NCBI GenBank assembly: GCA_014898415.1
Contig: RCTD01000012.1
Span: 1,054,001 to 1,118,000, forward strand
Source of the DNA: Stromatinia cepivora
Taxonomy: Eukaryota > Ascomycota > Leotiomycetes > Helotiales > Sclerotiniaceae
Length of the DNA: 64,000 bases
Direction: 5' to 3'
Shown here piece by piece: positions 17,009 to 44,500 of the stretch. The notes under the pieces were generated by a model that was given only the letters and a program-made list of their open reading frames with translations, made no database searches and was not told the origin of the DNA. A program made the translations under genes and the position numbers. The stretch's first letter is position 1. Every line of letters begins with the position of its first letter.

Positions 17009-17336
17009 ATTGATTGGGAGGGATGGCGGGATGGGATGGAGAAAAAATCCTGCAGACAACCTCGAATGTGGTTCTACGGTGCTAGATATTTGATTAAGGT
17101 ATTAATTTTCGAACTTTGAAATGGCGGAAAGTAAGCGGAGGTGGTGGTTATGGTGGTAAATTTGCTACTGCTGTATGGAGCATTGTCGCGTTGGACGCGA
17201 GCGCCAAGAAATCTTGACAGGGGTAAGCTGTTACTTCAGACTTACTTCGTTAACTTAATCTCAATCATGAATCCAACCTCACTTCATATATACAATCCAG
17301 ATCACGCTTATTTATGATAATACTCTGTTGTATATG
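17009..17336. promoter_or_regulatory. Upstream region of arp1
   Basis: A short intergenic stretch between the arp1 start and the 3' end of a minus-strand pseudogene. No specific motif recognised. Confidence 0.45.
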
Positions 17337-27460: not shown

Positions 27461-29182
27461 CTAAGCCCCTGTCCCACCTTCAGGTGCCCCTTTAACTTTA
27501 TCTCCGCGTTTCCATAACTTTTGTAGTCCCTTTTTGATTGAATTTGGCGTCTGTGGACTTTTCTCTGCCACGGGGGTAGGTACTTTGGTCTCGGGTGAAT
27601 TCAACCCTAGAATACTCAACATGCTTAACCTTCTCTGCTTTTTCTTGCCCGCGAGACTAGGTTCAGGGACAGATGAAGTAGGGGGCCATTCACCATCCCG
27701 CTTCCATCCGTGTACACAACTTTGTATGACATCGGATAGATTGATAGGACAACTAGGTGTCAATGACTGTATAATAACTTTGTCATATATGGTGCTATAA
27801 GCTTGGGGGTTAATGCTTGCTCTCATTGCATTGTCCGGTGGTAGAAGAGATTTAGCAATCGGCACCTCGGTGTCCCATCCTTCTGAATCCGAGAAATCAT
27901 CCACAGCTTTATGGGGGTTCCCATTTGTATGGACTGGTGTATTTTCGATGCCGCGTGGTTCTCGTCCGGTTGGTGGAGGGACACGTCGAGCACAAGTCCA
28001 TGCATCACGTCTTTCTACATAACAATGTACTCCAGTATTCCATTCCATTTCCGCAGCAAGCTTCTTTTTATGTCGGCGTCTTCGGGCGGCTTGTCTTTGT
28101 TTAACCAATTGACCTACACCATCAGGGCTGTCAAATCGAAAAAGGCTTTCCTTATCCGGAGAATTGATGTTAATGGGACCCTTAGGGGAAGTCGGATCCT
28201 CGCCCTCGCTCCCGCTAGGATCGCTTTCCCAGATATCTCTTTCTCGCCACTCCTCCTTATATGTAGGGCTATCCATACTAGTATTCTGGGCCTCGTCCAA
28301 AGAAGGGTTCTTGACTAATGCTTCCATTATATCGATAGGGTCACTTTCTTCTGCTGGCCAGACCCAATTCCAGTCCTGCTTCACGTTCTTCTCCAAGTAT
28401 TGCCGAACAGCTTCTTTTTGCGTCGCCCTGTCGTTACTTGTCAGCTCAGCCTCGTAAATTGTCAAGGCATTTGGATGTGCCTTGACCCGAGCCATCTTCC
28501 GACGAGTTGTTTTGCTTTTGACAACATTCATATCTTTATTTGAGATGCTGGCGGGATTCGCAATAGTGGTGTTGTCACTCGAGATTTGTGGATTTGTAAA
28601 AATAGAGGTTATTGATGGTTGACAATGTTGTTGAATACTAGGAGATATTGTAGTTTCTGTAGTGGTAGTGGTTGTATAAGGCTGGTTTTCTGTCGAGGGA
28701 TTTATATTTTCAAGTGGTCGTACGATAGACATTGGTGGTGCGACTATTTGAGAAGCAAGCATGATTAGAATATACCTTTCAAGAAGTATTCTCATGATGT
28801 AAAGGGTAAAGATTTAATGGTTCGTCCTACCTGAATTGGTATTTTCCGCATTTACTTTCCGTCCATCTCCACCTGTTGTTGCCGTATCAATAATCGATTT
28901 CGACTCATTACCAACATCGGAACTTTTGTGTAAGGCAGGGTCTGATTGTGAGGGATTATCCGGAGCTTTGAGCTCTTGTTGATTTGATGAAGATACAGAT
29001 AAATTATTCAATATTTGAGATGTCGATGATTCCAAATTCGTCTTAGCTGCAGTGACTTCTATGCCTTCTTTAGTATCAGTAGTGACTTCTAGTTCAGGAG
29101 TATCATGGCGAGGGTCGTATTTTGCTTCGTCCGATGTATTAACTGGATGATTTGCCATGCCGGCAGATGTATCTTGAGACAT
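27461..29182 (-). CDS. Conserved fungal protein resembling the DUF4050 / Gag1-clamp type (544 aa)
   Basis: Inferred exons 28831-29182 and 27461-28743 (intron 28744-28830, GTAGGA..AATAG) give 545 codons. Residues 1-150 are Ser/Thr/Asn-rich and disordered. The conserved part begins near residue 160 (RRKMARVKAHPNAL) and includes KQDWNWVWPAEESDPID, EEWRERDIWES, SLFRFDSPDGVG, an Arg/Lys helix (RQAARRRRHKKKLAAEMEW), CYVERRDAWTCARRVPP, and the block AYSTIYDKVIIQSLTPSCPI followed by NLSDVIQSCVHGWKRDGEWPP. The tail is basic (KKGLQKLWKRGDKVKG). From memory this pattern matches the fungal family once called DUF4050, now linked to Gag1-like clamp proteins; that assignment needs a profile search. No membrane span. 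Conserved composition and a clean intron support a real gene. Confidence 0.8.
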
Positions 29183-31477: not shown

Positions 31478-32211
31478 GGGTGGTGTGGTATGTCAGTTTC
31501 ATATTTTGCGGGGGATGCATTTTGTTCGTTTCGTTGTGTAGTTTTATTTTTCGTTTTTTTTTTGCAGTTGGTGTAAGGTTGGGTGTACAGCGACTGCGGA
31601 TCGAGGCGCTAGACATTAATATAAGATTGAGAGTCAATATTGATATCTCGCTCAAACATATTCTTAAGCTGTCAGTTTTGTTCGCTTTGAATATATTTTG
31701 TATGATGATATATTTTTAAGTCAAAAACCGCCACGCTGTCTAAAGCGCTTCTTATAACATATATTATGTTAGACTATGAGGTTTAGAAATATAAAACAAG
31801 TATTCTGCCTTTAATTGATTGAGATTGATATGAAAATCGCTTCTCTTAAAAACGAATCGCTCTTCTTTCTTTGTATTATATATTGAAGCCATTGAGCTGC
31901 TAAAGGTGTAGACACTATGTTGTACAGCCTAGGAACCTAGCTTGCGAGTTCTTTCTCCTATTTCATAGAAAGTAGACAGCAAATTCATAAAATTCTCTCC
32001 TTGAAACCACTACACGGCTCTTCAAACTTCACTACTTAGTACACATCATCTTGCAACTCAGCGCGACACTAAAGAATTGCTTCCTTATGAGCAGAACAAA
32101 TAGAAAGAAATTACAGGCCATAGGACACCTGACTAGCATCATGTTTACATCCCAGATCTGGATTATGCATGATCCATACCACAACCCATACCCATAAGGT
32201 GTGAACATCAA
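31478..32211. other. Intergenic region before the motif array
   Basis: No gene seen. Short T-rich tracts occur near 31550. Confidence 0.5.
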
Positions 32212-32249
32212 TTTGTTGCACATCTCATTGAGGTCACCCACGGTCAGGC
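32212..32249 (+). repeat. Array motif copy 1
   Basis: Intact TGTTGCACATCTC; the arms are AGGTC and GGTC with a longer loop. Confidence 0.7.
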
Positions 32250-32350
32250 CATATTATCAAGCGGGGTGCTGCAGGCCAAGCAATAGATGCATTTTCCTAG
32301 TAATTAAATGCTATTGGGCGTCAAACCTAGAGTAAAGAGAGCATTTTTTC

Positions 32351-32375
32351 CACCCCGGCCCCCAATGCGACCTCC
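32351..32375 (+). repeat. Second short motif (…ATGCGACC), copy a
   Basis: A GGCC-rich lead-in followed by CAATGCGACCT. Related sites lie at 36643 and 37092, beside the motif array. Confidence 0.45.
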
Positions 32376-32453
32376 TGCAGATGACAGCGGTCTTCACAGA
32401 CTATTGAAAAACTCTGTCCTTGCAAGAAGATAACGAAAGTAGACGACATACAA

Positions 32454-32482
32454 TTGTTGCATATCTCAGATGGCCTTGACCC
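32454..32482 (+). repeat. Array motif copy 2
   Basis: TGTTGCATATCTC intact; the arms are decayed (TGGCC, TGACC). Confidence 0.75.
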
Positions 32483-32738
32483 AACCTTGCGCTGGCAAGA
32501 TGATTTCCTCAGCCAATGTATTGAGGAGATAAAGTTTGAAATTATGGTGCTTCGCAAGCAAAGGGGAACAAATATCCACAAATAGCAAACGGATAAGCAT
32601 AAATAATCTCATGGTCGCAGGAAAGGTCTCTTGATCATCCTCATCTCATTCCTTCTCCTCCATCCCTGGCACGATCGCAATTCATCACTCGATTAACGCC
32701 AGACTCAAACATTCCAATCAATACTCATCAAAAAGAAA

Positions 32739-32768
32739 TGTTGCACATCTCCAAAGGCCGCTGACCCC
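32739..32768 (+). repeat. Array motif copy 3
   Basis: TGTTGCACATCTC followed by AAAGGCCGCTGACCCC. Confidence 0.8.
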
Positions 32769-33455
32769 AATATTGTAAGATTCGTTAAAAAAAAAATGAC
32801 ACCAATAGTTCCACCTGACGGCCGGCTCGGAGGTCGCGGCAATTTGGGATCAATAGTAATCATTGGCTACTTCTGCTGATATGTCGCCTAATTAGGCTTA
32901 GGCGTTCAGTTGGCCTGTGGATTCTTCTAGCGTGGAGATACTTTCGCTTATGGTCGGGATTGAGGTCGTGATGATGTGGCAGCATTAAGAGCGCCTGCGA
33001 AAAGCAATGAAATTGGGTCTGAGAGGATGACAGCAGGTTTGAGGTAGTTGATTAAAGAGCGACGTCGATAATGTTTCGATGTTCTTTATGCAGCGTGTGT
33101 GGCTTGATTTTGGTGGCTGATAGGTTCACATAGGTTTTACACCGAAGAATGGCGGACCTGTCACTTCCTGAAGGCTGCAAAAGAGCGTTTGTTATTATGT
33201 ACTATCGAAGAACGCACAATAAAGGAGGATTCCTTCAAGAAGGAACACAACCAGAAACAGAGATTTCCATCGTGGAGTCTCATCCAATGATGCCGAAATT
33301 TACGTTGTCCATATCGGCGACCATTCAACCTTATTCCTTCGCTCCGGAGAAACTTCCGGAAAAAGCAAGGTCCGGGGATCAGCTGGATTTTTTGATTGCC
33401 CGAGACATCTTCTGTGAAGAAGTTTAACATTGATTGCTAGCAAGTAAGAATGGGA

Positions 33456-33486
33456 TTTGTTGCACGTCTGAAAAGGTCGGCGACCT
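33456..33486 (+). repeat. Array motif copy 4
   Basis: Box TGTTGCACGTCTG; perfect inverted repeat AGGTC-GGC-GACCT. Confidence 0.88.
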
Positions 33487-33646
33487 GGTGGTTCCTTGTA
33501 AAGGATTGATGTCGCCGATAAGGATAATCTTAGTAAGAAGTTTTATCGGGTTGAGTGAGATGGAACAGCGCCAGGTGGTAAGTGGGGGCGGGCTAGATGA
33601 AAATCGTCAGGGTCGACTTGAGCTCAATTGGATGAGAAGACAACGT

Positions 33647-33678
33647 TTTGTTGCAAACCAGAAAAGGTCGGCGACCTG
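33647..33678 (+). repeat. Array motif copy 5
   Basis: Box diverged after TGTTGCA; perfect inverted repeat AGGTC-GGC-GACCT. Confidence 0.85.
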
Positions 33679-33830
33679 GAAATTCCTCCTCTCCAAATTT
33701 ATATCTTAAAGGTCGCCGGGTATCCACTTGTCAAAATGAAAACTCATATTTTGGCTTCACCGTCAACCTCTCGAGTCATAATTCTTCTGGGCATGGAGAA
33801 TGAATGACGGAAAGCTGAATTGACAGAAGA

Positions 33831-33858
33831 TTTTGTTGCATTTCTTAATCGGCGATAT
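33831..33858 (+). repeat. Array motif copy 6
   Basis: TTTTGTTGCATTTCTTAATC then GGCGATA; most of the first arm is lost. Confidence 0.65.
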
Positions 33859-34013
33859 GATGTTTCTACATGCTGTGTCCGATCAGCAATAACCTTTGGA
33901 TGAATGTCCAAGGACAGTATCCAATGGTACGAAGTCGAATGAGATCGAGACCGAAGTGGAGCTATACTAGACTTTAAGGCAAATGATATTCACCCACTTC
34001 TCAACGAAAGAAC

Positions 34014-34041
34014 TTTTGTTGCATCTCTCAATCGGCGACCT
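34014..34041 (+). repeat. Array motif copy 7
   Basis: TTTTGTTGCATCTCTCAATC then GGCGACCT; first arm shortened. Confidence 0.75.
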
Positions 34042-34197
34042 GAAAGGAAAGAGGTGAGTGTCTCCACCTGGATCAAGTCCCTTTACGAGGGCAAAATTTC
34101 CCCAAGACAAGGTAGTGATCGAAGCAGGGACCAGGAAGAAAATATCACAGCAGAAGCCCTTACGGCTAAGGGAACAAATCAATAACAAGAGAATACA

Positions 34198-34229
34198 TTT
34201 TGTTGCATATTTTGAAAGGCCGGTGACCT
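34198..34229 (+). repeat. Array motif copy 8
   Basis: TGTTGCATATTTTGAAAGGC then CGGTGACCT; one arm mismatch. Confidence 0.8.
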
Positions 34230-34375
34230 CACCATGTCGACAAACTCGTCCTAAGGATCCACTTGGATGCTTCATCTCAAAATGATCGGGTCCGAATTAT
34301 GGTCACCGTGAAAAAGATGCCATGCTAAAATCCAGAAGCAAATTATCCTCCTTCATTACTGAAATATCACAAATC

Positions 34376-34404
34376 TGTTGCATATCTCAAAGGTCTCCGA
34401 CCTT
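34376..34404 (+). repeat. Array motif copy 9
   Basis: TGTTGCATATCTC then the perfect 6-bp arms AAGGTC-TCC-GACCTT. Confidence 0.88.
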
Positions 34405-34568
34405 CTGTCTCTGTCCATTTAATAATTGATTGGGCATGGAAAGTTCATGCTGTCTTTGCTAGTGGGGTTTTGTGGTTGTTGATGAGGTCTGCGTGGAGGC
34501 ATCATGAAATAGAGAAGAGCTTTTCCGAGTAGCACGCGGAGACCCGCCTAATTTTCCCAAAAACAAAT

Positions 34569-34597
34569 GGTTGCACATCTCAAAAGGCCTTCAGTCT
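34569..34597 (+). repeat. Array motif copy 10
   Basis: GGTTGCACATCTCAAAAGGC then CTTCAGTCTT; second arm decayed. Confidence 0.8.
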
Positions 34598-35226
34598 TCT
34601 CTACTTTTATTTTCAGACTTTTCTCTGCCATTTGTTTCATATTTATCTTCGAAGTTTAACGCAAAGGATTCATAATTGGGCCGGGTAGGTCTCCTCCGAG
34701 GCTATAATTCACAGTGAGAATGAAATGACAAGATTGTGTTTCATGGTATGAAGATCTCTTGTTTGTGGTGGCTTCGTTTTAAGGGCTTCGAGATAGGTGT
34801 GTGTCACCTGAAGAATCAGATCGCTATGATGTGGATTGAGCAAGGTGAGAACGAATGCGCGGCTATTCACTTGAGGAAATTCCAAGGCTTTTAGAGAAGA
34901 CAGGTATTCATGCTAATATCCCAGGCTCTTTAGCTTAGAGTTAGTTGATATTCTAAGTTAACTTCCGATTCCACAAAACTAATCCGAGGGAACCAGGTTC
35001 TGAGCAAGTGAGAGTCCAGAGAAGAAATTCTTCAACCGCTCTTACAATTCGTTGCCTTTCCAATCACATAGCTCATGGTCCAGTGCTGTGCATTTCTTTG
35101 AGGTCTTTGATAGTTAGGACACAAAGCAATTGATGTGGTTTGGAGCCAAAGAATGGAGATTTCAAAATGTTGAAAGACCGAAAGATGAAAAACCGTGTTC
35201 CCTTGTAATTGCAACAAAGGATTTAC

Positions 35227-35254
35227 TGTTGCACATCTCAAATGGCCTGGCCTT
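35227..35254 (+). repeat. Array motif copy 11
   Basis: TGTTGCACATCTCAAATGGC then CTGGCCTT. Confidence 0.8.
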
Positions 35255-35701
35255 CATACCAATTCCAATTCACCAATAGCGATTCCATCTGCGCTTCCCA
35301 CAGATTTTTCCAATGCCAGGCAATACTTCCCGTGCCACCCAATCGCGACCAGCTTCAGACATTTATTAACGATCTCTCAGCAAATAAAAATATTTTTATC
35401 ATTTTGCTGCTGGGATCCGAATGTTACTGGAAATCATATTTCTCGTACTTTGGAGCGTCGGTTATTGGAAATTGTTGCAGTAAGAAAATGTTTGCACGAC
35501 ATGAGCACCACTCATTTGATCAGCTCGAGACATTCCGGTGAAGTGACAGCCAGTGGATTTTATCGTTTTGACAGGCCGTTTGATGACCGACATATGCAGG
35601 CGAGAAAATTCAATCGGGGCCTCAATGAGGCTGTCAACCGGTCACTATGATTGAGCTAATTAATGATTCCAGGTTTAAGAAAGGAACTGTGGACATTTGA
35701 G

Positions 35702-35733
35702 AAGCTCAGCGGCCTTTTGAGATGTGCAACATT
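35702..35733 (-). repeat. Array motif copy 12, inverted
   Basis: On the minus strand TGTTGCACATCTCAAAAGGC then CGCTGAGCTT. Confidence 0.85.
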
Positions 35734-36072
35734 CGGAGATGATACCTATGAACGTTAATACAAGCCCGTAGAGTAGCGGAGACCGATGTGAATAGGGCCG
35801 GCAACTCTTTGGATGTAGCTCATCCTGGGTTTGTCGGTGGAGTATGGGTCAGGGACGGGCTGGTCAGAATGTGCACAATTCATCTTTCTATATTTCATTG
35901 GAGCACATGAAATGTATCCTGCCATTACACTCGACTAAGATCCCATCGATATACTTACTCAGAAACGTTGAAGGGATGCGCAAGATTGTACTGTGGTGTC
36001 TATATCAGGGCAATTTCTCTACCTCGTTGCTTCCTCGACCCCGAATAATCCAAGTGATTATAGGCAATACAA

Positions 36073-36101
36073 CGTTGCACGTCTCAAAGACCACTGACCT
36101 T
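36073..36101 (+). repeat. Array motif copy 13
   Basis: GTTGCACGTCTCAAAGACC then ACTGACCTT. Confidence 0.8.
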
Positions 36102-36245
36102 CATTGGCATGTCAGAACCGAACTTTTCTCACCACAGTACCTTTCTATTTCAAACTACATATTTCGCCTGACTTATAGCGACCATCTTACTACGATATAC
36201 AGCAGCTTCTTTCTTTTTTGAGCTAGTAAAGCTAAATCGAGTGAT

Positions 36246-36274
36246 TGTTGCATATTTCAAAAGTCCACCGACCG
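36246..36274 (+). repeat. Array motif copy 14
   Basis: TGTTGCATATTTCAAAAGTC then CACCGACCG. Confidence 0.75.
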
Positions 36275-36642
36275 ACTCTCATACCTTTTATTCGTACAAT
36301 AGTGTATTAATCAATAAAATTAATATATTTACATTTCAATTACCACGAAGGCCGTTAAAATAACCTTCTTTTGTGGCTGTGTCGGCTACTCCCACCAGTC
36401 AAACAGGTACCAAATTCCACATCACAAGAGACCCAGAGCATCTAATTTTATGAATTACTACCAGGGAACAAAAATTCTTCCAGTAGCGCTACATATGTTA
36501 TCGTGCTTGGGAACCACAAAATTTGTGATTAATTTTAGATGACCGCAATGTAATAAGCGCCGCTCCTCTTCGGCCAATTATGAGCCCGTAGTTTTTGACT
36601 TTGTGATCACACGGCCCGCTCGGAGACCGAAGGTGGGATTAT

Positions 36643-36667
36643 AGCCCAGACCTCCGATGCGACCTTT
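36643..36667 (+). repeat. Second short motif, copy b
   Basis: GACCTCCGATGCGACCTTTG. A companion ACGGCC-GCTCGGAG box lies about 30 bp upstream (36611), matching one at 32819. Confidence 0.45.
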
Positions 36668-37091
36668 GCCATTTTTAAATGTAAGATCTTACATTTTTGG
36701 ATCCCGCGTGTTTTTATTATGGGCTTATACGATGATTCATGATTCCGATGGCAAATTAGTTAGTAGTGGTTGAAAATTGGGGATACTAAGATCGCAACAT
36801 TGAGTCTCCAGGAGGTGGTTAGGCTTTTCGTATTAAGCTAATTGGTCTTGAGGCAGAGTCATGGAAGGATATGGTCACTAGGAGAAACTCCCCGGAAGCC
36901 GAACCAAACCCCAACAGAACCACCACTCCTATTCTCCAAACTCGTTTAACTCGTGCACACACTCTCTCTTTTCCTAAACTTTCGAGGCGAACATGACACA
37001 TACACGTCTGCAATCCCGAAACTTACAGGGTCATCAGAATTGCAAAGTTTGGCTCAGATGTCTGAGCAATTAGTCTAACTTTGCGACCATC

Positions 37092-37118
37092 GTCCAGACC
37101 GGCCGATGATGCGACCAT
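37092..37118 (+). repeat. Second short motif, copy c
   Basis: GACCGGCCGATGATGCGACC resembles copies a and b. Confidence 0.45.
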
Positions 37119-37229
37119 TGCTACTTTTATATCACTTCGTATTTATAGATCTTATCTTTTACGTTGTCAGATTAGATTACAGTAGCCGTATATCAGTAGA
37201 CTTTAGTATGATAGCCAAAGAATTCGAAG

Positions 37230-37259
37230 AGGTCCCAGCCTTTTGAGATGTGCAACATT
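37230..37259 (-). repeat. Array motif copy 15, inverted, distal
   Basis: On the minus strand TGTTGCACATCTCAAAAGGC then TGGGACCT. Confidence 0.85.
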
Positions 37260-39017
37260 TGAGCTTTGTAATTGCGTTCTTGAATACGATGGAAATTAGT
37301 GGAGTGTAGGCGGAAAGATGCCTATTCGACTGAAGGATCTAATGACATTTTGTAAAATCCCAATCTTTCCTTATTGCCTGCTCAGATACCGGCAGTGGCA
37401 CAGGTGTATCGTGAAAACTTCTCTCATGACAGCATTACTAGCACTGGGCCATCATCCCAGGTACCTATTTAGTCTACTTGCTTCCCATCTCCCACTCATC
37501 TCTCCTGGAAGTAATTTCTCTATTTTCGATTTTGGTTGTGGGATCTCCCTTTGATTTCGACCTTCATTCAATTCTAATTCCAATTATATCTTCTATTGTT
37601 TCGCACGTTTTCCACACGTTGCGGAAAGTAACCAAACTTATATTCGGTCTTTGTATCTTCATCTTCCGCTTTTCCATGACATACCGTTGTTTTATTTTTA
37701 TTCCACACATGCGGAGTCGATTAAATATAGATTCCGTCTTCTATTTTCAATTTTCCGTTACCAACCATTGTTATTTATTGTTTATTCACGGAAAAGATCC
37801 CTCTCGTTCCGTTCTACTATCTAATCCACTGCAATATTCGTTGTTGGTTCCATACTCACGAAGCCTCGAATTAGTTGCCAACTCTAAATTTATCTTCCTG
37901 TCAAAGTCCATCCTTACTTATCATCACCCTAGGTTTACATTCTAGTCGTTCACTAAATATACCCCGTTTTTCATCCGCATATAACTCACAATGTCTATTG
38001 TACGCTTCAAAACTGGCTTCCGCCCGCTTTCATCTTTCTTGTCCCAATTCACGAGATTTACCCTTTTATTGTTCCAAATTTAATCTCTTCTTTAGGCGGA
38101 GTCGGAATTCCTTCCGGGACGCCGAATAGTACTCATAATGTGCTCTTCTTGCCCATTTCCTTTGTCTCCTTCTTTCTTTATCAAATCAGCCTTGGCATTC
38201 ATTCCTTTCTCACTCAGTAATCATCTCCTCGGCCTCCTCAACTCCAATCACCTAATTCCGCAATCAACCCCTCAAGCTCTTGCACCACCGCATCTGTTAT
38301 TTCGTCACCAGCTCTCTAATTGGACTGCTTACGAGCTGGCACCACCAACCTCCTCATTAAAGCAGCAAATGCCTAAATCTTCTTTGTTCTCTTATTCCCG
38401 AACGTTCCTGATGACACTTTTAGCGCATGTAAAAGCAGCAAGTCCCTACTAGTTCTTTGTGTTCTTTGCAAGCTTAAGAAGCTAAACGTCAGACGAGGCA
38501 ATCAGGCGAGGTATACGGTCGAGGTTATTGGAACGTGATGAGGAACCAGGGGAAGGAGATTGGTTCTTTGTTGATGACAAGATTGGTTTAGATGAGATGA
38601 AGTTACGTAGATGCGGCTTTCAGGCAGATTACTTTGAGTGAGGAAGTCGGAGTTCGGGCGATGAGGCGGTGCAAGGTCGGGGTCATGTGGGATGGGAGAT
38701 AGTGGGATGAAAGTGGGGTGAGTGATGGGGCCTAGGTGATTAGTTGTTCTTTATTGACAAGGTGAGTGACGGAATCAAAGATGAGAAAGTTTTCGGAGTC
38801 CGGCTCGGTGGGATGAAAGTATGAAAGGATGAAATAATATACGGTGATTCGAGAGTGGATTAAACCAATTGACCATAGTCAAAGGTTTGAACAATTCACC
38901 AAAAGTGGTGAAAGTGATGATATTCACAAGCAGTAACAGAAAGACTATTTACATAAGATCAAAAGCAGGAGAAATCGTCCATAGATATAGTTCTTCATAG
39001 ATTTAGCTCATCATGGC
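37260..39017. other. Gene-poor region, pyrimidine-rich on the plus strand to about 38.45 kb
   Basis: Plus-strand frames at 37318-38452 are open mainly because the strand is T/C-rich; none has a recognisable domain or splice logic. Two stretches near 37.64 and 37.73 kb share words (GTCTT, TTTTCC, CCGTTG or CCATTG) and may be an old duplication. From 38.46 to 38.85 kb the strand turns G-rich with repeated GGTTCTTTGTTGA-like words. No gene is called. Confidence 0.4.
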
Positions 39018-41216: not shown

Positions 41217-41507
41217 TTAGATCAGTATTGTATACTCATTCAGTGGAAAGGATACCGTATGTATATATATGCATTCTGGATGCCACCTGCAGAGTCTACC
41301 ACTATTGTTTGACACATTGAACGTCTTTCCGCATGTTTCATGCTCACAAATCGCAAAACGGGGTACTAAAATGTTGCTCGCAGCTTCATCGATTGGGCTA
41401 AGATGGGATTCCGCAGCATTTTCGTCAAACTCGATCTCTTTTGATGAATGATTGGGCTGCGCAACGGTTACCTGCGGGGCGGATAATGGTTCTGATGGAT
41501 AATCCAT
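41217..41507 (-). CDS. Small gene fragment with possible zinc-binding Cys/His cluster
   Basis: Starts at an ATG (41507) and reads MDYPSEPLSAPQVTVAQPNH...; the last third holds CEHETCGKTFNVSNNSGRLC followed by RWHPEC. The C-x4-C...C-x2-H spacing with a conserved Asn pair resembles a small fungal zinc-binding motif. After WHPEC the frame reads IYIHTVSFPLNEYTILI and stops next to the TIR element, so the natural C-terminus may be lost. It is an island of ordinary composition inside AT-rich DNA. Whether it is expressed cannot be judged. Confidence 0.4.
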   Translation of the reverse strand: MDYPSEPLSAPQVTVAQPNHSSKEIEFDENAAESHLSPIDEAASNILVPRFAICEHETCGKTFNVSNNSGRLCRWHPECIYIHTVSFPLNEYTILI

Positions 41508-44500
41508 GAATAATCCATTGACGGGACTATAAATCTATAAATCCTTTATAAATCGATTAAATGAATATATAAAGTACAGCAATCTTTGTAATAATTAAAT
41601 TTCCTTTACAAAATACTTTGATTAATTATTCCAATATATATACTTCCTTTTGGAATATTGAAATTGATCAATTGAAATAATTTCTAAATCACTTTTATAT
41701 ATATTATAAAGAATATCAATAATACAATTAATAAACTTATACTTCATATTCTCTATATCAATATATTCAATAAAATCGGGATCTATATTATTATTACAAA
41801 TATTTCCTTAAACAATATCAATATCTTTACTTACAAAATATAATTATTTTTTAATAAAAAAATCGACTTCTTCAATTTCTTCAATAAAAAAATCGATCGA
41901 TATTTGTATATCTTTATTATATACCTTATCCTTATTATTTAAAGAATTAAATAGATTGAATAATCCTAAATCGATTTCTTTATTCCCATTATCATCCTTT
42001 AAATCTATATCTATTCCCAAAACCAATTTGTTTGTAAACAATAGATCTAAAATATACTTAATAAATAAATCAAAGACTTTTTAATTTATAAAAATAAGTA
42101 AATGAATAAAATCTTTATGATTATCCTTATTTTGAATAATCGTTCTATTCATTTCAATATAATCTTGTAAATCAAAAATTTTAACAAATTGTTTAAACTC
42201 TTTTGTAATATAAATATCGATTATTCGATTGATAAAGTTTATATAATAAATAAATTCCTTATTGAATATTATATTTCGAATAATAATAATTCTATCGAAC
42301 TTGGATATTCATATATAATAGATTAGTATGACTGGGATATAGTCTACTAAATACCTAATATATATTCAAGGATTGATTTTGTATTATTTCCTATTAATTC
42401 TAGTTTCTCTATTCTTATTCAAAAAGTAAATTTGATATCCATATTAATAGATTCTGTTTCAATTGAAATAAAGATCGTTAAATATTTTTTTTATAAATAA
42501 AGAATTATTTTTACAAAGATAGTTACAGAATTATATATTGAATATCTTATTGAATAATTTAAAGGATTTAATTTTAAAAGGATTTATATTATATAAATAA
42601 ATAGTAGTTTATATCATTTCTATTCACAATTTGTCCAATAAACCTATTATAATCCGTATTTTTATCTATTTTGTAATTATTTCTTATTCTATATATTCTA
42701 ATCCTTTATTAGATTTATATATATAAAACAAAAATAATTCGAATTCAATACCTTCTTATTTGATCCATTTCTCAAATAATATTACTTTTATAACTTCAAT
42801 AATAAATATATTATTATTCTACTTGATCATTATAATTATTAAACTATACTTATAATAAATTCAAGTTATAAAGCTTTGAATGATTACAAATACTTCATCA
42901 TATATTTTGCAATAGATTGAATATAAAAAGATCTTATCACAATATATTTCTTTGATCAATAAAAGTTATAATATATTATTATACCCTTTATCGAAATCAA
43001 AAAGATTCTATTGGATTTTATAAAAAGATCAAGATAACTAGCGATTACTTGAAATATAAGAAATGATTTGCTTTATATAAATACAAATATAATCGGTATA
43101 ATTGAAATGAATGATATCTTTTATTTTGATATTTTATATTACAAATATTAAATATTCAAGAGTTTTTTTCTCTAAATGCCTGAAATATTTATACTATATT
43201 TCATTTATATCTTTTCTTAAAAAAAATGGTTTACGAAAATAATAGAATACTTTGTTTATTTTTCTATTTATTGTTAAATATATTATAAAAAAATTGTTTA
43301 TAAAAATAAATAAAAAATATTTGAATAAATAAAAAATGATTTATATTCTAAGAATATAAGATTTTCAATATAAATATATTAAGCAATTATTATACTATTT
43401 GTATAATCTCCTTTACAAAAAGTATAATTATATTTTGAGAATTATAAGCCAGCTTTCTCTAATCGAGTTTTCGAAACGATATTAATATAAAAGCCAAAAA
43501 TGAATATTATATTATTCAAAATCAAATCACTATTAGAATAACCTTCTCTCTTAATAATCCCTTTGATAATACGAACCCTATATTTTAGGACTTAAAAACT
43601 GAAAGTGCCTGTTTCTATAAGATCATTAAAATCGAATAATCGATATCGATAATCATTTAATAGAAATATATCATTTACAATATATATAGCATTACAATTA
43701 TCGAGTAAAATATTATTAAACAGATAATATACTTTTATTATTGTAAAATATATCTTTGATTGATTGTATTGAATATCCAAGATAATAGTATTAATTGAAG
43801 ATCCTAAAGGATTAATAGAATTTTTCATTTATTTCCTTTTGATCTAATGAAAATAAAATTGCTTCCATGAATATGATTTTGCTCGATCCTTAATTACTTG
43901 TAGTTTATTTTTACTGAATACTCTTTTGAACAATAGATTGATCCTTTCGATAAATCTTAATTTTATAACTTTGTAATTATAAATAGTATAATTATAACCA
44001 ATTCCATTATTTAATTTAGATTTAATTTTACAAAAATATTCCTAAATCTTCTTAATCCTTTGATTATTTTTAGAATTAATACTCTTTTTATTCTTTTTAG
44101 ATTTTTTTATCATTTTAAGAAAAAATAAGTATAGAATATATTCCTCCTTTAGCTTTTAAAGAAATAGAATCCTAAAAAACTAATCCTTCAAAAACATTTC
44201 CGAATTGTTTAAATAAAAGATTGGATAATTCAAACTAATTATTTATTTCGATTTATATAATCATAATATTTATCCAAATTGAATGCATCCTAGTATCAAT
44301 AGTTTGTAGAAAAATGTTGATAACGATTTTATCCTGTATTTTAGTAATCTTATATACGAAAACTTTAATGTAGATTATAATCCAATCCTTATACCATTTG
44401 ACAGAATTGATTCTACTAAATAAGGTTTGTATTAAAACAGATCGATATTCTTGTAATATTGCAAACTTAATAGTAATTATTATAAATATAAGCTTCTTTT

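Follow-up and report, generated by a model that had tools for sequence, protein, structure and literature searches.

The window analysed here is a 64,000-nucleotide (64-kb) stretch of the Stromatinia cepivora genome (contig RCTD01000012.1, contig 12, positions 1,054,001 to 1,118,000). Between positions 32214 and 37257 it carries an array of 15 copies of a short motif, 13 forward and two inverted. In this study, the motif is called the anchor and written (TTT)TGTTGCAYATCT(nAAA), a 12-bp core plus T and A flanks. In the array it is followed on its 3' side by a second word, RGGYC-nnn-GACCY. Judging from the DNA alone, we believe with a probability of roughly 0.55 that the array represents composite protein-binding sites clustered in intergenic DNA. 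An initial annotation of this DNA had listed a protein-binding or boundary array phased to nucleosomes as one option among several, and a protein-binding array with roughly nucleosomal spacing gives the best fit, because the anchor is enriched throughout the genome, avoids open reading frames (ORFs), and stands in helical phase with CCAAT boxes.

The genome comprises 55.7 Mb in 48 contigs, and the 12-mer and CCAAT counts refer to all of it. The exact 12-mers TGTTGCATATCT and TGTTGCACATCT occurred 322 and 173 times, respectively, and their reversed controls 1 and 2 times, that is, 495 exact anchors against 3 controls. With one mismatch or fewer, the counts of TGTTGCAYATCTSAAA and TTTTGTTGCATATCTGAAA were 221 and 73 (controls 1 and 0, respectively), and TTGCAYATCT occurred 866 times against 163 for its control. 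The initial annotation had considered that a profile of the copies might hit the genome only at the background rate, and this was clearly not seen. The profile of 201 instances showed 12 sharp core positions, preceded by a weaker preference for T (-3 to -1) and followed by one for A that extends to about +16; beyond about -3/+16 there was almost no conservation common to all anchors. Spacing and orientation statistics were taken on contig 1, where 43% of 86 TTGCAYATCT sites had a neighbour within 500 bp, compared with 1.8% of random sites, and adjacent pairs within 1.5 kb had the same orientation in 25 cases and the opposite one in 6. Isolated single anchors also occur. ORFs of at least 150 aa cover 25.5% of loci L009-L033 yet hold only 2 of the 125 anchors there; the window was left out of this count, and in the window itself 1 of 13 anchors lay inside such an ORF. 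We recognised neither this anchor nor arrays of this kind in the open-access literature searched, where the 12-mer string occurs in five papers, which deal with cucumber, endothelial cells, cricket, planarian, and cordgrass.

The second line of evidence is the CCAAT box. Among the 495 exact genomic anchors, 88 had a CCAAT 15-45 bp upstream on the same strand and 22 had an inverted ATTGG (p = 1.6e-10), where about 22 is the expectation; the tests in this study count related units as independent unless they are said to use one site per cluster. The distances from the first C to the anchor were trimodal, with 16, 29, and 21 sites at 24-27, 34-37, and 44-48 bp, respectively (66 of the 88; the three ranges were named after inspection). 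The peaks lie near 25, 35, and 46 bp, so that successive ones differ by roughly a helical turn. When periods of 9-12.4 bp were scanned with a Rayleigh-type test, the best was about 11 bp (p <= 0.0005), and the phasing persisted when each 5-kb cluster contributed a single site (n = 69, p = 0.002). In the ATTGG control, the distances were flat and showed no phasing. CCAATCA, the form preferred by NF-Y, was the spelling of 39 of the 88 boxes. The phasing by helical turns indicates that proteins on the CCAAT box and on the anchor would face each other on duplex DNA, and therefore the anchor protein is probably on the same face as the CCAAT-binding complex and in contact with it. We regard this phasing as the strongest evidence for a DNA-bound regulatory site over an RNA hairpin or a transposon scar. 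The CCAAT rule concerns the anchor family and was derived from sites other than the window array. One study reports that activators on opposite faces can work better (PMC3267773), so same-face phasing is no proof of activation.

Composites of this kind are known in fungi. Modules of the CCAAT-binding complex (NF-Y/Hap) join a CCAAT box to a partner site at a constrained distance in a cooperative, promoter-type arrangement, and the set orientation (88 vs 22) and helically phased spacing found here genome-wide resemble them. For example, the Yap5-Hap5 composite of Candida glabrata joins CCAAT to a Yap response element (YRE) at 10-14 bp (PMC5471220). Unlike that case, the partner here is a 12-bp anchor at about 25, 35, or 46 bp, the sites are arrayed, and there is a third, cluster-specific word. 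Similarly, the SXY module of major histocompatibility complex class II genes (RFX-CREB-NF-Y) has a fixed order and spacing (PMC7866136). Our sites are like this module in that several elements, including a CCAAT (Y) box, stand in fixed order, orientation, and spacing. The SXY module, in contrast, is vertebrate, has an inverted CCAAT, and is a single module rather than an array. The GTTGC string may bear a partial likeness to an RFX half-site.

For the window, a position weight matrix (PWM) was built from genomic instances chosen as for the 201 profiled ones. At a score of at least 9, it matched the 64-kb window 16 times and the reversed window not at all; a score of at least 8 was reached twice in the latter. 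The single match outside the array was a weak site at 17326; the window anchors scored 11.6 or more. The units found by the PWM, and one CCAAT box, are as follows.

32214-32241, forward strand: unit 1, anchor and second word GAGGTCACC
32455-32482, forward strand: unit 2, anchor and GGCCTTGACC
32714-32718, forward strand: CCAAT box 25 bp upstream of unit 3
32739-32766, forward strand: unit 3, anchor and GGCCGCTGACC
33458-33485, forward strand: unit 4, anchor and GGTCGGCGACC, perfect arms
33649-33676, forward strand: unit 5, decayed anchor and GGTCGGCGACC, perfect arms
33834-33861, forward strand: unit 6, anchor and degenerate word TCGGCGATATG
34017-34044, forward strand: unit 7, anchor and TCGGCGACC
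34201-34228, forward strand: unit 8, anchor and GGCCGGTGACC
34376-34403, forward strand: unit 9, anchor and AAGGTCTCCGACCTT, perfect arms
34569-34596, forward strand: unit 10, anchor and GGCCTTCAGTC
35227-35254, forward strand: unit 11, anchor and GGCCTGGCC
35704-35731, reverse strand: unit 12, inverted, anchor and GGCCGCTGAGC
36073-36100, forward strand: unit 13, anchor and GACCACTGACC
36246-36273, forward strand: unit 14, anchor and GTCCACCGACC
37230-37257, reverse strand: unit 15, inverted, anchor and GGCTGGGACC

Within 33458-34569 all copies are forward and the gaps are 191, 185, 183, 184, 175, and 193 bp, whereas the remaining gaps are irregular (241, 284, 719, 658, 504, 342, 173, and 1011 bp); the inverted copies start at 35731 and 37257. 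Most copies are 64-87% alike to a reference copy. The spacers are about 145 to about 980 bp long and unrelated, with an excess similarity of about 0 outside the anchor and the 3' word in the 13 of 15 copies compared. Tandem Repeats Finder (TRF) reported no long-period array in 31500-38000, and no paralogue of the array was found elsewhere in the genome. The initial annotation had described about 15 copies, with their coordinates, orientations, and gaps, including the six gaps of 175-193 bp in a single orientation and the inverted copies to the right, and the PWM scan and a coordinate check bore this out. Its view that the spacers are unrelated and no decayed satellite of long units was upheld by the similarity profile and TRF; the alternative it had allowed for, that the spacers align with each other, did not occur. 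It had also been right that the array resembles clustered regularly interspaced short palindromic repeats (CRISPR) in layout only. A CRISPR array was rejected, since the copies are not near-identical, the spacers are not uniform in length, and the surrounding genes are eukaryotic ones in place of cas genes. Likewise, no convincing gene was found inside the array, as first noted; a single 153-aa stop-to-stop ORF (35189-35647) runs across the copy at 35227.

The second word of the window array was found as GGYC..ACC at +16 to +22 in 8 of the 15 units, compared with 0.3% of spots placed at random in that region (P = 1e-16, for a pattern picked after inspection of the units). Three copies have perfect arms, with GGC loops at 33458 and 33649 and a TCC loop at 34376, just as the initial annotation had read them. 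It had proposed from them that pairing or dyad symmetry matters; the dyad half of this proposal fits binding by a dimer, and pairing as the key was not supported. The left arm is frequently GGCC, which is mismatched to GACC, and the window word is therefore an asymmetric dyad-like word and not a conserved hairpin. Constant arms around a varying centre would fit the pattern expected of a dimer site. For pairing, neither covariation nor clear unit-specific pairing was found. An array of RNA or DNA hairpins whose AGGTC/GACCT arms pair for function is, in our opinion, hardly credible. It could draw on the perfect arms in 3 of 15 copies and on palindromes just 3' of the anchors that are slightly longer than elsewhere (mean arm 3.94 vs 3.60-3.89), but the GGCC left arms spoil the pairing. 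Complementarity scores of at least 9 were reached by 3.9% of own units against 2.8% of same-cluster swaps and 1.1% of other-cluster swaps, and RNAalifold predicted no pairs in nine units of the C1:1.94 Mb array. The pairing reading was rejected on mean complementarity, which was 5.91 for own units, 5.82 for same-cluster swaps, and 5.70 for other-cluster swaps (205 anchors). Pairing of the window words with a complement further down their own unit was likewise no rule by the swap control.

The word GCGACC occurs 13 times in the array region, and 9 of these are anchor-free, in the sense that they lie neither within 5 bp upstream nor within 75 bp downstream of an anchor; 0.49 would be expected. 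These words, and one anchor-linked case, are listed below.

32367-32372, forward strand: GCGACC outside any unit
32613-32618, reverse strand: GCGACC outside any unit
32832-32837, reverse strand: GCGACC outside any unit
33317-33322, forward strand: GCGACC outside any unit
33711-33716, reverse strand: GCGACC 62 bp downstream of anchor 5, within the 75-bp limit and so taken as anchor-linked
35345-35350, forward strand: GCGACC outside any unit
36178-36183, forward strand: GCGACC outside any unit
36659-36664, forward strand: GCGACC outside any unit
37083-37088, forward strand: GCGACC outside any unit
37111-37116, forward strand: GCGACC outside any unit

Words 3' of the anchor are also shared within many other arrays. 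The comparison covered 208 anchors in 46 clusters, at loci picked by motif matches, with L001-L008 and sites without flanks left out. In the 20 clusters with at least 4 sites, the mean within-cluster excess similarity was 1.18 at +16 and 1.27 at +28, compared with 0.27-0.29 at -30/-24. Pairs scoring at least 11 made up 8.5% within clusters and 0.1% between them on the 3' side, 4.4% and 0.1% on the 5' side, and 5.3% and 0.3% when the 3' side was compared with its own reverse complement. The best word of each cluster was kept in a search of the 15 clusters with at least 5 sites. The words AGTACTTTT (C1:1.94 Mb, within one mismatch), GAGGGGTAA (C25:934 kb), ATTCACCTA (C28:590 kb), and CGAACCATA (C1:208 kb) were found in 10 of 12, 6 of 8, 6 of 9, and 4 of 5 members, respectively, and GATCTGCAT (C19:423-427 kb) in 8 of 21, all within one sub-array of 9 sites. 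Three further arrays, seen in pieces and selected for CCAAT boxes or many anchors, had 9-mer 3' words in 3 of 3, 3 of 5, and 3 of 5 members; by eye, fuller dyads were present there, GGrTGyATCC in C13 and TCCGA-TCGGA in C10. Some words recur in two loci, so privacy to a cluster is not absolute. The C1:1.94 Mb word was anchor-free 5 times against 0.5 expected, both strands being counted and palindromic words scored once per strand. Helical phasing of this second word is not claimed, since the signal over all 11 (p = 0.004) was lost when only the 6 distinct distance classes were counted (p = 0.18). In the C4 array the common word, CATGTGA, lies upstream of the anchor rather than 3' of it. There (C4:2026210-2031059, L010 and L011), CCAAT-n-CATGTGAT precedes 6 of 10 anchors as an E-box-like fourth site, and the array occupies a long stretch poor in genes, with an HMF-type (NF-Y-like) gene about 11 kb away.

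Shared sequence within arrays can also be read as ancestry. The arrays would then be old tandem repeats that keep a replication- or recombination-prone seed, and the similarity near the anchor would be residual ancestry or short-patch gene conversion. The periods do differ by array (about 63, 74, 86, 185, and 192 bp), the copies are co-oriented, and the units of C1:1.94 Mb, unlike the window spacers, align partly along their length, as those of a satellite do. Nevertheless, we consider this origin distinctly improbable: the window word keeps its arms and varies its centre, the similarity is stronger 3' than 5' of the anchor, and the CCAAT phasing and isolated single anchors suggest selection. 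The CENP-B box is known as the sole element common to otherwise unrelated satellite DNAs, and the window array is similar in having a constant, presumably protein-binding box in unrelated units of about nucleosome length. It differs in that the arrays here are small and dispersed, single sites occur, and the window spacers are not repeats.

Scars of a very short mobile element had been another early suggestion. The sites would then be remains of such an element or of the ends of miniature inverted-repeat transposable elements (MITEs), with the anchor as terminal inverted repeat. A few anchor pairs do face each other at about 90-170 bp (e.g., C25:685k and C7:1.79M), and a few locus pairs have longer common flanks (L042/L043, L049/L054, and L032/L051). 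However, neighbouring anchors point mostly in the same direction (25 vs 6), the facing pairs inspected by eye had no target duplication, the set as a whole has no common flank beyond about -3/+16 (about 20 bp), and true MITEs nearby have clear ends and 8-bp duplications. We therefore hold this origin to be very improbable, and the suggestion was not borne out. In L042 (1499-1556), which carries an RPC31 gene as well, and L043 (1464-1521), lone anchors on different contigs lie in 58-59 bp that are 88% alike and mostly upstream of the anchor.

Several MITEs were observed in these loci. A hAT-type MITE of about 0.5-0.6 kb, with ends TAGGCTGCGCA and TTGCGCAGCCTA and 8-bp duplications such as TTACTATG (by eye), is present in seven loci (L014 3780-4374, L021 3088-3561, L048 818-1368, L018, L025, L039, and L045), with fragments in L028 and at 41449-41527 of the window. 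An anchor is found about 20-45 bp from the copies in L014, L021, and L048. L022 (4272-4711) and L028 (942-1381) carry 440-bp copies of a young MITE, 95% identical and with 34-bp terminal inverted repeats. The 59 bp at 32871-32929 of the window, within the 719-bp gap of the array, have 20 more full or partial genome matches, three inverted pairs among them, and look like the lone end of another MITE.

The initial annotation had also raised strings of small RNA genes. In such an arrangement, the CCAAT box and anchor would form a directional promoter of non-coding RNA genes, and the word would mark the start of a short transcript. We consider this unlikely. In its favour, CCAAT box, anchor, and word follow one another in a set order, anchors in arrays are co-oriented and intergenic, the sequence upstream of the anchor is rich in C (204 sites; skew -0.076, with a cluster bootstrap of -0.138 to -0.026), and runs of six T, possible terminators, are weakly raised at +120 to +149 (11 of 204 sites, compared with 1-6 in other bins). 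Nematode Piwi-interacting RNA (piRNA, 21U-RNA) loci offer a likeness, with a short constant Ruby motif at many clustered loci followed by differing sequence; their upstream motif is derived from small nuclear RNA (snRNA) promoters (PMC6436959). Here, in contrast, the downstream words are common within a cluster, no kinship with snRNA promoters was seen, and the system is known from DNA alone. The distance of the word varies in some arrays (17-71 bp in C1:1.94 Mb), no conserved structure was seen, and anchor-free words exist in the window and in C1:1.94 Mb. The anchor was found in 0 of 6 snRNA upstream regions of about 0.2-0.35 kb (U1 three times, U2 twice, and U4; best PWM score 4.2), where the three U1 matches fall below the Rfam cut-off. 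An snRNA-type promoter (proximal sequence element) or Ruby-like promoter was rejected on this result. Rfam gave no family match in the window and, in 38 further loci, a single tRNA about 0.8 kb from an anchor, so that the small-RNA option stays unproven. By eye, five of the six U1/U2/U4 upstream pieces (L064, L065, L075, L076, and L078, not L077) share about ATTTGCACCAACTGGCC, four have TATATAAR, and one U2 copy appears to contain a small intron.

Several results weigh against a cluster of composite regulatory sites. Of the 15 window anchors, just one is preceded by a CCAAT within 60 bp, and the best 9-mer of the window cluster is found in 5 of 13 members by a strict measure. A 9-mer shared by at least half of the members was present in 8 of the 15 clusters with at least 5 sites, that is, not in all; C29:452-457k, C37, and C4:2026k have poor 3' words; and anchor-free private words occurred in only 2 of 11 arrays tested (the window and C1:1.94 Mb). 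Similarity upstream of the anchor is likewise raised (0.79 at -60 and 0.58 at -75), which partly reflects neighbouring units of short-period arrays. Anchors do not keep to the 5' flanks of genes: an eye count gave about 19 gene 3' ends and about 10 5' ends facing anchors. Finally, the genes flanking the arrays have no common theme.

The neighbouring genes were called only crudely throughout. A blastp of 1030 ORFs between loci (E <= 1e-6, pairs at least 95% identical left out) gave no match that would point to a common gene family beside the arrays. Pfam matches were obtained in 12 of 28 flanking ORFs, 2EXR twice and the rest all different, such as proteasome subunit, MutS, DRE2, and amino-acid permease. 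Autoregulated transcription-factor genes were unsupported by the neighbours, though HMF-type and PAP1-type genes are among them. MIT1 chromo/PHD, Gag1-like clamp, and SpoU domains are encoded in the window, which also has a Copia piece, a set in keeping with a filamentous ascomycete; the nearest Pfam-matched gene to the left of the array is the Gag1-like one (ORF 27461-28795, reverse strand), and to the right an AT-rich block starts at about 39.4 kb. At 37480-38900, about 0.9 kb of strongly C+T-rich sequence is followed by about 0.4 kb of G+A-rich sequence without a clear gene, and by eye the strand composition switches near 38450.

The arrays might instead organise the chromosome, as boundary, pairing, or nuclear-organisation addresses in which a constant zinc-finger-type site is joined to local identity words. 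The asymmetric 12-bp core, the location in gene-poor DNA, the orientation bias, and a second word that differs per array are in keeping with this. The pairing-centre motifs of Caenorhabditis elegans, bound by HIM-8/ZIM proteins, are likewise of the 12-bp class and clustered in non-coding DNA. Unlike them, the anchor is phased with CCAAT, which points to a transcription-type complex, and by hand count among the matches listed it lies on at least 31 of the 48 contigs, not in one region per chromosome. We consider such a role quite unlikely.

For the array as a cluster of composite protein-binding sites, we speculated the following mechanism. The anchor would be bound by one putative sequence-specific protein used genome-wide, and a second factor, dimeric and local to the cluster, probably binds the word 3' of it. 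At some sites the CCAAT-binding complex may assist the anchor protein, at the three spacings one helical turn apart. The repetition at about 185 bp would place one platform in each linker with about one nucleosome between platforms; around 199 anchors, no nucleosome-scale oscillation of composition was seen. The array would then act as a strong, multi-site control element, whether activating or repressing, for a nearby gene or domain. The AT-rich blocks of the genome suggest repeat-induced mutation, and the unrelated spacers offer no long homology, so the arrays may persist in such a genome. More tentatively, we could imagine a modular addressing code, in which a constant anchor at about 500 or more sites is read by a common protein and an interchangeable word by a local dimeric factor. 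The members of an array would share one word, most arrays would differ from each other in it, each array would be a nucleosome-spaced platform with its own identity, and the anchor would be helically coupled to the CCAAT-binding complex at some sites.

If our reading is true, S. cepivora would have a major DNA-binding factor, undescribed in the open-access literature searched, that partners the CCAAT-binding complex at a fixed helical phase. Its regulatory arrays would combine constant and changeable parts, and they would lend themselves to studies of enhancer grammar, of nucleosome phasing, and of the persistence of regulatory repeats.

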